From Taeniopygia guttata (taxonomy: Eukaryota; Chordata; Aves; Passeriformes; Estrildidae): a stretch of 64,000 nt of DNA. A model generated the notes under the pieces. It saw only the letters and a list, made by a program, of their open reading frames with translations. It had not been told where the DNA came from and did no database searches. Location: NCBI RefSeq assembly GCF_048771995.1, contig NC_133060.1:1509501-1573500 (forward strand), given 5' to 3'. Below, in pieces: positions 51,801 to 60,800 of the stretch (position 1 is its first letter; each line of letters begins with the position of its first letter). The translations under genes and the position numbers were made by a program.

Positions 51801-54800
51801 CCCAAATCCCCCATTTTTCCCCCAAATCCCCCATTTTCCCCCCAAATCCCCCCTTTTTTCCCCCAAAATCCCCCATTTTTCCCCCAAATCCCCCATTTTC
51901 CCCCCAAATCCCAAATTTTTCACCCAAATCCCCCATTTTTCCCCCCAAATCCCCCATTTTTCCCCCAAATCCCCCATTTTTCCCCCAAATCCCCCATTTT
52001 TCCCCCCAAATCCCCCATTTTCCCACCAAATCCCCCATTTTTCCCCCAAATCCCCCATTTTTCCCCCCCAAATCTCCCATTTTTCCCCTAAAATCCCCTT
52101 TTTTTCCCCCAAATCCCCCATTTTTCCCCCAAATCCCCCGTTTTTCCCCCAAATCCCCCATTTTTCCCCCAAATCCCCCATTTTCCCCCAAATCCCAATT
52201 TTTCACCCCAAATCCCCAATTTCCCACCCCCAAATCCCCCATTTTCCCCCAAAATCCTCATTTTTTCCCCCAAATCCCCCATTTTTCCCCCTAAATCCCC
52301 AATCTCCCAGACCCCAAATCCCCCATTTTTCACCCCAAAACCCCATTTTTACCCCAAAAACCCCATTTTTCCCCCAAAATAACCCAATTTCCCCCCACCC
52401 GGAGCATCTGCAGCCCGTCCTGCCTGTCTGACCCCAAATCCCCCATTTTTCACCCCCTAAATCCCCCAAATCCCCCATTTTTACCCCAAAATCCCCATTT
52501 TTCCCCCAAAGCCCCATTTTTCCCTCAAATCCCCCATTTTTCCCCCAAAACCCCATTTTTTTCCCACCCTCAGCATCTGCAGCCCGTCCTGCCTGTCTGA
52601 CCCCAAATCCCAGTTTCCCACTACCCAAATCCCAGTTTTTCACCCCAAATCCCAATTCCCCCATCTCCCACTCCCCCAATCCCAGTTTCCCACCCCAAAT
52701 CCCAGTTTCCCACCCCAAATCCCAATTTCCCACCCCCAAATCCCCCATTTTTCCACAAAACCCCCAATTTTTCCCCCAAATCCCCCATTTTTCCCCCAAA
52801 ATCCCCCATTTTCCCCACCCTCAGCATCTGCAGCCCGTCCTGCCTGTCTGACCCCAAATTCCCCATTTTTCACCCCAAAACCCCATTTTTCCCCAAAATC
52901 CCCATTTTCACCCCAAAATGCCCCAATTTTCCCTCACTTTGAGCATCTGCAGCCCCTCCTGCCTGTCTGACCCCAAATTCCCCATTTTTCACCCCAAATC
53001 CCCCATTTTCCCCCTAAATCCCCAATTTCCCACCCCAAATCCCAGTTTTTCACCCCAAATCCCATCTTCCCACCCCAAATCCCAGTTTCCCACCCCAAAC
53101 CCCAATTTCCCACTCCAAAATCCCCCATTTTACCCCAAATTCCCCATTTTTCACCCCAAAACCCCATTTTTACCCAAAATCCCCATTTTTCCCCCAAAAT
53201 AACCCAATTTCCCCTCACCCGGAGCATCTGCAGCCTGTCCTGCCTGTCTGACCCCAAATCCCCCATTTTCACCCCAAAACCCCATTTTTCCCCCCAAATC
53301 CCATCTTCCCACCCCAAATCCAGTTTCCCATCCCCAAACCCCAATTTCCCCATCTCCCAGACTTCCAAACCCCAATTTCCCAATCTTCCAGACCCCAAAT
53401 CCCCCATTTTTCACCCCAAATCCCCCATTTTCCCCCCAAAACCCCATTTTTCCCCAAATCCCCCATTTTTCCCCCAAAATGCCCCAATTTCCCCTCACTC
53501 TGAGCATCTGCAGCCCGTCCTGCCGTGCCGCAGCCTCGGCCTGGGCGATGCGGCGCTGCAGCGCGTCCTGTCTGTCTGACCCCAAAATCCCCATTTTTCA
53601 CCCCAAAACCCCATTTTTTACCCCAAATCCCCCATTTTTCACCCCAAAATAACCCAATTTCCCCTGACCCGGAGCATCTGCAGTCCGTCCTGCCTGTCTG
53701 ACCCCAAATTCCCCAATTTTTCACCCCCTAAATCCCCCAAGATCCCCATTTTTCACCCCAAAACCCCATTTTCCCCCCAAACCCCCATTTTCCCCCCCTA
53801 AATCCCCCAAATCCCCCATTTTTTCCCCAAATCCCAATTTCCCACACCCCAAAACCCCCATTTTTCCCCCATTTTTCGCACCCGGAGCATCTGCAGCCCG
53901 TCCTGCCTGTCCGACCCCAAATCCCCCAATTTTTCACCCCAAAACCCCCAATTTTTCCCCCAAATTCCCCATTTCACCCCAAAACCCCATTTTTACCCAA
54001 AATCCCCATTTTTCACCCCAAAATCCCCCATTTTTCGCACTCTGAGCATCTGCAGCCCGTCCTGCCGCGCCGCAGCCTCGGCCTGGGCGATGCGGCGCTG
54101 CAGCGCGTCCTGTCTGTCTGACCCCAAAATCCCCATTTTTCACCCCAAAACCCCATTTTTCCCCCGAAATGCCCCAATTTCCCCCCACCCGGAGCATCTG
54201 CAGCCCGTCCTGCCTGTCTGACCCCAAAATCCCCCATTTTTCCCCCAAAATAACCCAATTTCCCCTGACCTGGAGCATCTGCAGCCTGTCCTGCCTGTCC
54301 CACCCCAAAATCCCCATTTTTCACCCCAAATCCCCCATTTTCCCCCAAAACCCCATTTTTCACCCCAAAACCCCATTTTTTCCCCAAATCCCCCATTTTT
54401 CCCCCCAAATCCCCCATTTTTCCCCCCAAATCCCAGTTTCGCCATCTCCCACTCCCCAAATCCCAGTTTTTCACCCCAAATCCCATTTTTCCCCCCAAAT
54501 CCCAGTTTTTCACCCCAAATCCCATCTTCCTACCCCAAAGCCCAATTTCCCCATCTCCCAGACTCCCAAATCCCAATCCCCCAATCTCCCATCCCCAAAA
54601 TCCCCCATTTTCCCCCCCAAATCCCCCATTTTCCCCCCCAAATCCCCCATTTTCACCCCAAATCCCCCATTTTTCCCCCAATTTTCCCCCAATTTCCCCT
54701 CACTTTGAGCATCTGCAGCCCGTCCTGCCGCGCCGCAGCCTCGGCCTCGGCGATGCAGCACTGCAGCGCGTCCTGTCTGTCTGACCCCAAATTCCCCTAT

Positions 54801-57800: not shown

Positions 57801-60800
57801 CGCAGCCTCGGCCTGGGCGATGCGGCGCTGCAGCGCGCTCCTGTGCAGCTCCAGGGGCTGCAGCCCCTCCTGCCTGTCTGACCCCAAATCCCCCATTTTT
57901 CACCCCAAAACCCCATTTTTACCCAAAATCCCCATTTTTCACCCCATTTTTCCCCCATTTTTCGCACCCGGAGCATCTGCAGCCCGTCCTGCCGCGCCGC
58001 AGCCTCGGCCTGGGCGATGCGGCGCTGCAGCGCGCTGCGGTGCAGCTCCAGCGCGGCGACGTTGCGGCGCTGCAGCTCCAGCTGCGCCTCGTGGCGCTCC
58101 CGCAGCCGCCGCAGCTGCAGCGCGCGCTCGGCCGCAACGAAGCGCTGCAGCGCTGCCACGGCGTCCTCCAGGTCCTGCGCCTCCGCCCGCAGCTGGTCCT
58201 GCGACGCGGGAGGGGAAAAAGGGATTTAGGGAAATTTAAAATTAATTTAATAGAATTTTTTAAATTAAAAAAAGGAATAAAATTTAAAAAAAATTTTAAG
58301 AATTTAATAGAAGTTTTTAAAATTATAAAAAGGGAAAAAATTAAAAAAATATTTTAAAAATTTAATGGAAGTTTTTAAAATTAAAAAACGGGAAAAAATT
58401 AAAAAAAAAATTTTAAAAATTTAATGGAAGTTTTTAAAATTAAAAAAAGGGAAAAATTTTTTAAAAATTTAAAAAATTTTAAAAAATTAGAAAAAAATAA
58501 AAAAATTTTTAAAAAATTAAAAATTAAAAAAATTTAGAAAAATTTAAAAATTAAATTAAAAAATATAGAAATTAAAAAATTAAATGAAAAAAATTTAAAA
58601 TTAAAAAATTAAATTAAAAAAAATTATAAAAACGCTGCGACGGCGTCCTCCAGGTCCTGCGCCTCCGCATGCAGCTGGTCCTGCGACACGGGGAAAAAGG
58701 GGGAAAAAAGGGGGAAATTAATCTAGGAAAAATTAAAATAATTTTAAAAATTTAAAAAATTAAAAAAATGTAGAAATTAAAATATTAAATTAAGGAAAAT
58801 TTTAAAATTAAGAAATTAAATTTAGAAAAAATATAAAAATTAAAAAAAAAATTTAAAAAGTGAAAAAATTTTAAAATAAATTAATTTAAAAAATTAGAAA
58901 TGTTAAAAAATTTAAAATAAAAAATTTTAAAATAATTTTAAAATGTTAAAAATTAAAAATAATTAGAAAAATTAAAAAAAAAAATTAACATTTAAAAAAT
59001 CTGAAAAAATTTTAAAAATTAAAATAAATTAAAAATAAATTTTAAAAATTAAAAAAATTAAAAATTTAAAAAATTAAAAATATTTTTTAAAATTTTAAAA
59101 CTTAAAAAAAATTTTAAAATATAAAAAATTTTAAAATATAAAAACTTTTAAAAAGTTTTAAAAATTTAGAAAAAAATTAAAAATTAAAAAAATTTTAAAA
59201 TTAAAAAAATAATTAAAAACTAAGAAATTATAAAAAAATTTTTAAATTAAAAAAATGTAAAAAAATTTTAAAAAGGGAAAAGGTTTCAAAAAATTTTTAA
59301 ATATTAAAAGAAAACTTAAAAAAATAGAAATAGAAATAGAAATAGAAATAGAAATAGAAATAGAAATAGAAATAGAAACAGAAACAGAAATAGAAACAGA
59401 ATAGAAAACCCAGAAAAACATGAAAATTAAAAAAAAATATTTAAAAATCAAAAATCAAAAAATTTAAAAATGAAAAATCAAAAGAGGCATAAGAAAAATA
59501 AAACTGAAGAATAAAAAATTCAAAAATAAAATAAAAAATTTTAAAATCACAAAAAAGTCAAAATATATATAAAAAAATAAGCTTAAAAAACAAAAGCATA
59601 AAAAAACCATAAAATAAAAAAAAATTTAAAAAAATCAGAGAAATCCATGCCCGTAAAATGATTGGGGTGAGCAAAGTGGGGAGAAAAAGGAAATTTTCGG
59701 GATTTTTTAGGCGGAATTTCCCTGAGAGTTCCCTCCTGGAAAAAGGAGATTTTAGAAGTCTGGAAGTAAAAATAAAATGTGTCAACCGAATTTCAACAAA
59801 TTAATTGGAGATTTCTTCGGATCGAGGGAGATTTTTTACGCTCCGTCTGCGTTTTGGGGCGAAAAAAGGGGATTTTGGCGACCTGGCAGTGGCGGTTTTT
59901 GGCGGAATTAAAGGCGAAAAGTGAAAAAAGTGAAAAATTGTGTATTTTTCTCACCCTGAGCACGGAGATTTTCTCCTCCTCGCTGGATTTTTGCTTCAGG
60001 ACGGCGTCCAGCTGCTCCCGCAGCGGCTCCAGGTGGTTCTGCAGCTGCTTCTGGGGGAAATCGGCGTTGGGAGAGGGAAAATTGTCAATTTCTGTGCAAA
60101 ACCACACCAAAAGTCCCAAATAAGGTAAAAAAACCTGCAAAAACCCAAAAAAACCCCCACAAAAAACATATAAAAAACCTGCAAAAACCCCCAAAAAACC
60201 CACTAAAACCCCACAAAACCCCCATAAAAAACCTGCAAAAACCCCCAAAAAAACCCCCACAAAAATCTAACAAAAACCCCACAAAAAATGGATAAACCAC
60301 CCCAAAAAACCCATAAACTGCCTGAAAAAACCCATAAACCGCCCTAAAAACCCATAAACTGCCCCAAAAAACCCTTCTGAGTCATACAAAAACCCCTCAA
60401 AAAGCCCATAGAAGCCTCAGAAAAAAAAACAAAAAAAAAAACTGCTGAAAAAACCCTAAAAAATCTAAAAAAAACCCTTTTAAAAATCTAAATAAAATCT
60501 AAAAAAAAATCTAAAAAAATCTTTAAAAAACCCCCAAAACCCTAAAAAATTCTCAAAAATTCCAAAAAAATCTTAAAAAAAATCTAAAAAAGTCTAAAAA
60601 AAATCTTTTAAAAACCTAAAAAAAATCTAAAAAAATCTAAAAAAAAATCCTAAAAAATCTTAAAAAAAATCTAAAAAAATTCTTAAAAAAAATCTTTTAA
60701 ACACCTAAAAAAATCTAAAAAAAATCGAAAAAAAAATCCAAATATCTAAAAAAATCTTGAAAAAACCCCTTAAAAAAAATCTCAAAAATTCAAAAAATCT

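Follow-up and report, generated by a model that had tools for sequence, protein, structure and literature searches.

An exon-stuttering array in TRIM41 intron 3 of Taeniopygia guttata, with copy variation suggesting a record of tolerated exon ends

TRIM41 intron 3 and its copies of the exon 3 end

We analysed a window of 64,000 nucleotides (nt) from Taeniopygia guttata (C37:1509501-1573500, C37 being a contig of 4.88 Mb), a bird locus with RACK1 on the forward strand and TRIM41 on the reverse strand, and in particular an array of partial exon copies in TRIM41 intron 3. The analysis was based on one assembly of one bird (1.14 Gb in 41 contigs) and on protein relatives, and it concerns DNA sequence only. 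RACK1 has eight exons (19198-43835). TRIM41 has six (62015-61122, 60050-59955, 58198-57968, 51383-51361, 51207-51080 and 49334-48823), with an open reading frame of 627 amino acids that matches RING, B-box, PRY and SPRY domains. Exon 1 codes for long runs of acidic residues, and a GA-rich stretch lies before it (61122-62620 region).

Intron 3 of TRIM41 is 6584 nt long. An ungapped scan of it found the last 21 nt of exon 3 in 24 partial exon copies of direct orientation, in agreement with a sequence-only reading made earlier from the same DNA, which had counted about 24. That reading had said that most copies keep cag, 21 in-frame bases and gt; we found cag before and gt after the 21 nt in 24/24 copies, in phase 0, with no indel and no stop. 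Six copies are longer, as had also been noticed, and extend by blastn over 84, 64, 67, 64, 64 and 64 nt of the exon. The features are as follows.

57968..58198, reverse strand: TRIM41 exon 3, 231 nt, phase 0, the source of the copies; real donor CGG/gtgcga (the slash marks the exon border)
51361..51383, reverse strand: TRIM41 exon 4, 23 nt; sole strong acceptor in the intron 3 scan
52399..57874, reverse strand: array of 24 copies in intron 3, each holding the exon 3 end and a donor, with G-rich minisatellite spacers between the copies
57771..57854, reverse strand: longest copy, 84 nt of exon; differs from the exon in one codon, synonymously (R384, CGC to AGG)
57056..57122, reverse strand: long copy with E393 and K407, both common in relatives; donor gtgagg
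55521..55587, reverse strand: long copy, 67 nt without difference from the present exon; donor gtgcga
54704..54770, reverse strand: long copy with E393 and K407, donor gtgagg and two R to C changes
54041..54107, reverse strand: long copy with last codon AGA; donor gtgcga
53499..53565, reverse strand: long copy with last codon AGA; donor gtgagg
58633..58680, reverse strand: copy from the acceptor side, covering the first 48 nt of exon 3 with 3 mismatches; lies in intron 2

Arrays of this type have been described in chicken as exon stuttering, in which lateral parts of exons, together with a donor or acceptor, recur as copies along the adjoining intron (Hron et al. 2026, PMC12954441). The text of that article reports 115 genes and 236 introns, 190 of these on dot chromosomes, with exon parts of 20-187 nt, 1-44 copies and spans of 112-23,555 nt; on the mechanism its authors only speculate. 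The TRIM41 array lies within these ranges (21-84 nt, 24 copies, about 5.6 kb), all 24 copies run through the exon border into gt, and the TRIM41 coding exons are intact. By its structure, the array is thus exon stuttering of the published kind. As far as the chicken cases are described in the main text, they share with ours a short lateral part of a coding exon copied together with its splice site, direct tandem copies in the adjacent intron, mostly repeat-covered introns, and an intact coding sequence. Our arrays differ in coming from another species and in that one of them, behind the last exon of a SPRY-domain gene (see below), lies outside introns. TRIM41 is not named in the main text of PMC12954441, and among the papers listed in a literature search, the terms "sequence stuttering" and "exon stuttering" occurred only in that article.

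We applied a blastn-short screen modelled on the published one, with 20 mononucleotide shuffles as background (maximum 26.3 bits). For TRIM41 exon 3, it returned 24 matches in intron 3 (32.2-151 bits) and 1 in intron 2, all of them direct; the published cut of 42.1 bits was reached by 17 of the 24 intron 3 matches and missed by 7. In the screen of TRIM41 and RACK1, no above-threshold exon match fell in a non-adjacent intron or on the other strand. Searched across the assembly, the exact 18-mer core of the copies had 14 matches, 13 in exon 3 and its array and 1 in an unrelated exon-like stretch on contig C20.

TRIM41 copies differ from each other in private substitutions, in lead types and in spacers, and by eye they show three kinds of left end that meet the exon near GCTGCAG-like motifs. 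Repetitive introns are hard to assemble, and the copy number may be off; an origin of the whole array as an assembly artefact is nevertheless hardly credible, given these differences, the similar anatomy in other genes described below and the chicken gene PHF8, in which, according to the text of PMC12954441, raw nanopore reads confirmed the overall structure of such repeats. When ten sites were compared over 25 units of TRIM41, 18 of the 45 site pairs showed all four combinations, so either recombination or parallel mutation has taken place among the units. Large blocks were also sought by self-blast of intron 3; the four rows listed all start in the real exon or its border, and the result was discarded because gapped alignments had probably merged the copies.

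Splice signals of the copies

The sequence-only reading had proposed that the copies are potential phase-0 micro-exons of 21 nt, each able to add a DGLQMLR unit to the coiled coil of TRIM41. The copies do resemble micro-exons in their length, phase, donor and open frame (24/24), and their donors are invariant at +1, +2 and +5. They are unlike micro-exons in having no acceptor. Using weight matrices for acceptors and donors, we obtained acceptor scores of -4.7 to -0.3 for the 24 copies versus 5.9 to 16.0 for the four real TRIM41 acceptors tested, and none of the 24 was usable. No pyrimidine tract precedes the copies, which have 4-7 pyrimidines in the 16 acceptor positions compared to 11-15 for real TRIM41 acceptors. 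Among 235 AGs scored over intron 3 and the start of exon 4, the exon 4 acceptor reached 16.0 and the runner-up 2.5. Moreover, the copies in RACK1 described below have no AG in front of them and break off within a codon, and their variant pattern is similar nonetheless. No tandem xGLQxLx duplicate was found by pattern among 120 listed relatives, which belong to other species and of which the mammalian form does not fit the pattern. Because the copies are without acceptors, we rejected them as micro-exons, a role that we regard as very improbable. The other parts of the earlier interpretation (partial copies, donors, frame and the parallel in RACK1) hold.

The donors of the copies were scored both by weight matrix and by U1 duplex energy. 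As the earlier reading had noticed for several of them, they often look stronger than the real exon 3 donor, which was surpassed by 18/24 copies in the matrix and by 13/24 in duplex energy. In the whole of intron 3, 24 GTs outscored the real donor, and 18 of these belong to copies. Such donors could act as U1 decoys or as alternative ends of exon 3 that slow or divert splicing and lower TRIM41 output. Extension of exon 3 to a copy donor leads to a stop at codon 66 in 23/24 cases, and the first extension (197 nt) has no stop and shifts the frame; these stops and the frame shift agree with a loss of output and led us to reject the extended exon as a coding isoform. The decoy explanation would leave unexplained the synonymous-only variation found in arrays such as that of the SPRY gene, and we consider it improbable as an account of the array.

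The acceptor-side copy in intron 2 had been overlooked in the first reading. It begins 482 nt upstream of exon 3 (58680-58633), and its acceptor scores 11.4 versus 9.9 for the real exon 3 acceptor; reading from this copy meets a stop after 18 codons.

Similar arrays in RACK1 and elsewhere on the contig

A parallel with RACK1 intron 2 had been drawn from the sequence, and it was borne out by 16 copies at a spacing of 140-210 nt.

26431..28788, forward strand: RACK1 intron 2 array, 16 copies of the exon 2 end with donor, by ungapped scan

The blastn-short screen with RACK1 exon 2 gave 2 matches in intron 2, 1 of which reached 42.1 bits, compared to the 16 copies of the ungapped scan. A single exonic variant is shared among the 16 RACK1 copies, and it is synonymous (GAC/GAT, 5/16); three private exonic variants are non-synonymous, one of them a stop. 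Copy donors of RACK1 are invariant at +1, +2, +5 and +6 and variable at +3 and +4. RACK1 intron 2 holds a second array at 29200-31120, whose unit contains caggaaaagaagatcatcatttatgg, a sequence that looks by eye like the acceptor side of RACK1 exon 2. Of the 11 real donors scored, those of the two window exons with donor-side arrays (at 26286 and 57968) rank lowest (4.8 and 5.2, the next being 5.6); both are gtgcg, an observation on two cases only. Two places in RACK1 may be remnants of hosted small nucleolar RNAs, namely a C/D-box-like stretch seen by eye at 28910-29010 and a weak SNORD95 match at 40170-40239 (27.5 bits versus a gathering score of 55). Other Rfam matches were taken for probable repeat artefacts.

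A screen for donor arrays over 264 kb around the window, in which 15,075 bases read N, recovered TRIM41 and RACK1 along with four additional exon ends. Of its 337 candidates, 34 passed the filters, and those beyond TRIM41, RACK1, VARS1, C37:1426023 and C37:1650086 were judged by eye only. The four exon ends have donor-side arrays at C37:1418386-1453826, which we call VARS-a (11 copies), VARS-b (10), VARS-c (4) and VARS-d (5). Three of the four match models of valine-tRNA ligase (VARS1); VARS-a was assigned to VARS1 by position and likeness only. A protein search led to a last exon of TRIM-type SPRY at C37:1657808-1658335 that is followed downstream by copies of its end, and a scan resolved this array (C37:1657808-1662536) into 13 copies of the last 47 codons and stop, spaced by about 320 nt. 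The occurrence of like arrays at four VARS1 exon ends and at the SPRY exon supports the earlier suggestion of a common local duplicating process in TRIM41 and RACK1. The candidate at C37:1426023 was dropped as a minisatellite without exon end, and that at C37:1650086 was set aside with an uncertain exon border. A second TRIM41 locus that could serve as outgroup DNA was sought in the same genome, with 70 of 128 candidates scored; none was present among the 51 matches listed, the others being distant TRIM or SPRY genes.

Tandem repeats cover 0.61-0.98 of 10 of the 12 introns of RACK1 and TRIM41 and none of two short ones. On its sense strand, TRIM41 intron 3 is G-rich, with a GC skew of 0.77 and 594 G-runs of at least 3. 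Over the 12 introns, we counted 1672 quadruplex-like motif starts on the sense strand versus 5 on the other, and 1620 of the 1672 fall in RACK1 intron 1 (19307-26114) and TRIM41 intron 3 (51384-57967). This sense-strand bias is common to both genes despite their opposite strands; it fits transcription-linked instability without being proof of it.

Variation among the copies and contact with the working exon

We examined how the variants in the copies relate to the function of the exon. Across the 24 TRIM41 copies, there is little variation at positions 1-17 of the 21-mer, and the last four exon bases vary; from -4 to +8, only +1, +2 and +5 are invariant. The last codon is AGG in 8 copies, CGG in 7, AGA in 4, AAA in 3, AAG in 1 and CAG in 1, and thus codes for lysine or arginine in 23/24. 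A neutral walk from AAA would reach at least five lysine or arginine codons among six distinct ones with a P of 0.003-0.011. Donors of the VARS1 copies vary at +6 and beyond and never at +1 to +5. An earlier test, which accepted lysine/arginine changes and the donor positions +3, +4 and +6 and whose classes were fixed after the data were seen, gave 8/10 for TRIM41 (P 0.003) and 4/4 for RACK1 (P 0.006).

We then counted synonymy strictly, with a kappa of 2 and with lysine/arginine and glutamine/glutamate changes taken as non-synonymous for TRIM41. The VARS1 and SPRY arrays were examined after the idea of constraint had been formed. In these five later arrays (VARS-a to VARS-d and SPRY), 6 of 7 shared exonic variants were synonymous versus 1.75 expected (P about 0.001), and over all seven arrays 10 of 15 (P 0.0014). 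The SPRY substitutions were synonymous in 9/9 cases (2 shared and 7 private) versus 2.2 expected (P below 1e-4); variable columns in this array amounted to 36/157 in the spacer and 9/144 in the coding part. This suggests that the variants in the copies are filtered by the function of the exon, a new observation here; the words "synonymous" and "ancestral state" are absent from the text of PMC12954441.

The long copies point in the same direction. Two of them (57056 and 54704) have glutamate at 393 and lysine at 407, where the present exon has glutamine and arginine. Among the 44 best-scoring relatives, residue 393 is glutamate in 39, aspartate in 4 and glutamine in 1, and residue 407 is lysine in 42, arginine in 1 and glutamine in 1. 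The best songbird-type relatives, from passerines, show 74-77% identity over residues 240-627. When residues 325-412 alone were used to look for closer ones, no match appeared at E 0.001. The donor gtgagg of the two copies is compatible with the VREKL that follows LLK in a Poecile protein model. The present exon end CGG/gtgcga recurs in the array, in copies 55541 and 53902. Like the present exon, Zosterops has M405 and R407, and R407 might therefore predate this species or have evolved twice. The copies may preserve earlier states of the working exon.

We also weighed an ordinary neutral tandem repeat, captured early once and then spread and decayed with no further contact with the exon, its variant pattern being due to chance. 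Several observations favour it and weigh against a continued role of the exon. Short TRIM41 copies have a common non-exonic lead, three SPRY copies carry a common in-frame deletion of 24 nt, and some shared variants are non-synonymous (TRIM41 D to E in 3 copies and G to R in 2; VARS-b R to H in 2); part of the variation was thus born and spread inside the arrays. In the strict count, only 3/7 shared exonic variants of TRIM41 are synonymous. Shared and private variants do not differ significantly in their synonymous share, either overall (10/15 versus 9/19, P 0.31) or without TRIM41 and SPRY (5/6 versus 3/10, P 0.12), and the private variants of TRIM41, RACK1 and VARS1 are near neutral (9/19 synonymous versus 5.2 expected, P 0.046). 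Since the sites are linked, effective numbers lie below the counts. Finally, the seven private synonymous SPRY variants are not the best prediction of a simple snapshot model; they would also be expected under continued exchange with the exon or under direct constraint on the copies. The neutral explanation, however, has to meet the synonymous excess among shared variants of the later arrays, the uniformly synonymous SPRY changes, the relative-like residues in two long copies and the recurrence of the present exon end, and we find it unlikely.

We consider it likely that the TRIM41 copies form a donor-side exon-stuttering array on a small bird chromosome, and that the working exon, as a selected master, seeds the copies or exchanges with them. 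As to mechanism and timing, we infer that the exon 3 junction (exon tail, donor and first part of the intron) would have been duplicated in tandem many times into intron 3, along with the G-rich minisatellite, and that the copies are probably by-products of this process. They would have donors because the copied piece contains one; its shortness and the absence of long homopolymer runs would keep them in frame. At different times, copies may have been seeded from the working exon or exchanged with it through unequal crossing-over or conversion, and much of their exonic variation would then be of a kind tolerable to the working exon.

A crossover in the core common to exon and copy would place the end and donor of the copy on the exon. 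More tentatively, and with more doubt than belief on our part, an exon end and its donor (or stop codon) on small bird chromosomes could be recycled through the adjacent array by unequal crossing-over or conversion, with copies being auditioned by selection, and the array could serve as a reservoir of tolerated exon ends and also as their fossil record. In this way, TRIM41 might have changed from K/gtgagg to R/gtgcga, and the 13 SPRY tails might vary only synonymously because they pass through the working exon. Silent-cassette systems, such as the conversion of chicken immunoglobulin genes by pseudogenes, offer a likeness, in that truncated copies beside a working gene could be a reservoir for exchange. 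The TRIM41-type arrays differ from them in that variation looks conserved rather than diversified and exchange is putative; we know of no dedicated exchange machinery for stutter arrays.

In conclusion, the repeats that had been read as micro-exons are a true array of the published kind, and the evidence is suggestive of copies that record or share tolerated states of the exon. TRIM41, RACK1, VARS1 and the last exon of a SPRY gene, all from one bird, thereby join the instability described in 2026 in chicken. They also point to a readable signal, in that the copies tend to vary within the limits that the exon imposes. Should this be true genome-wide, past changes of exon ends and donors would be recorded in stutter arrays, which would also show the direction of copying; this would bear on how these small chromosomes keep or lose genes.

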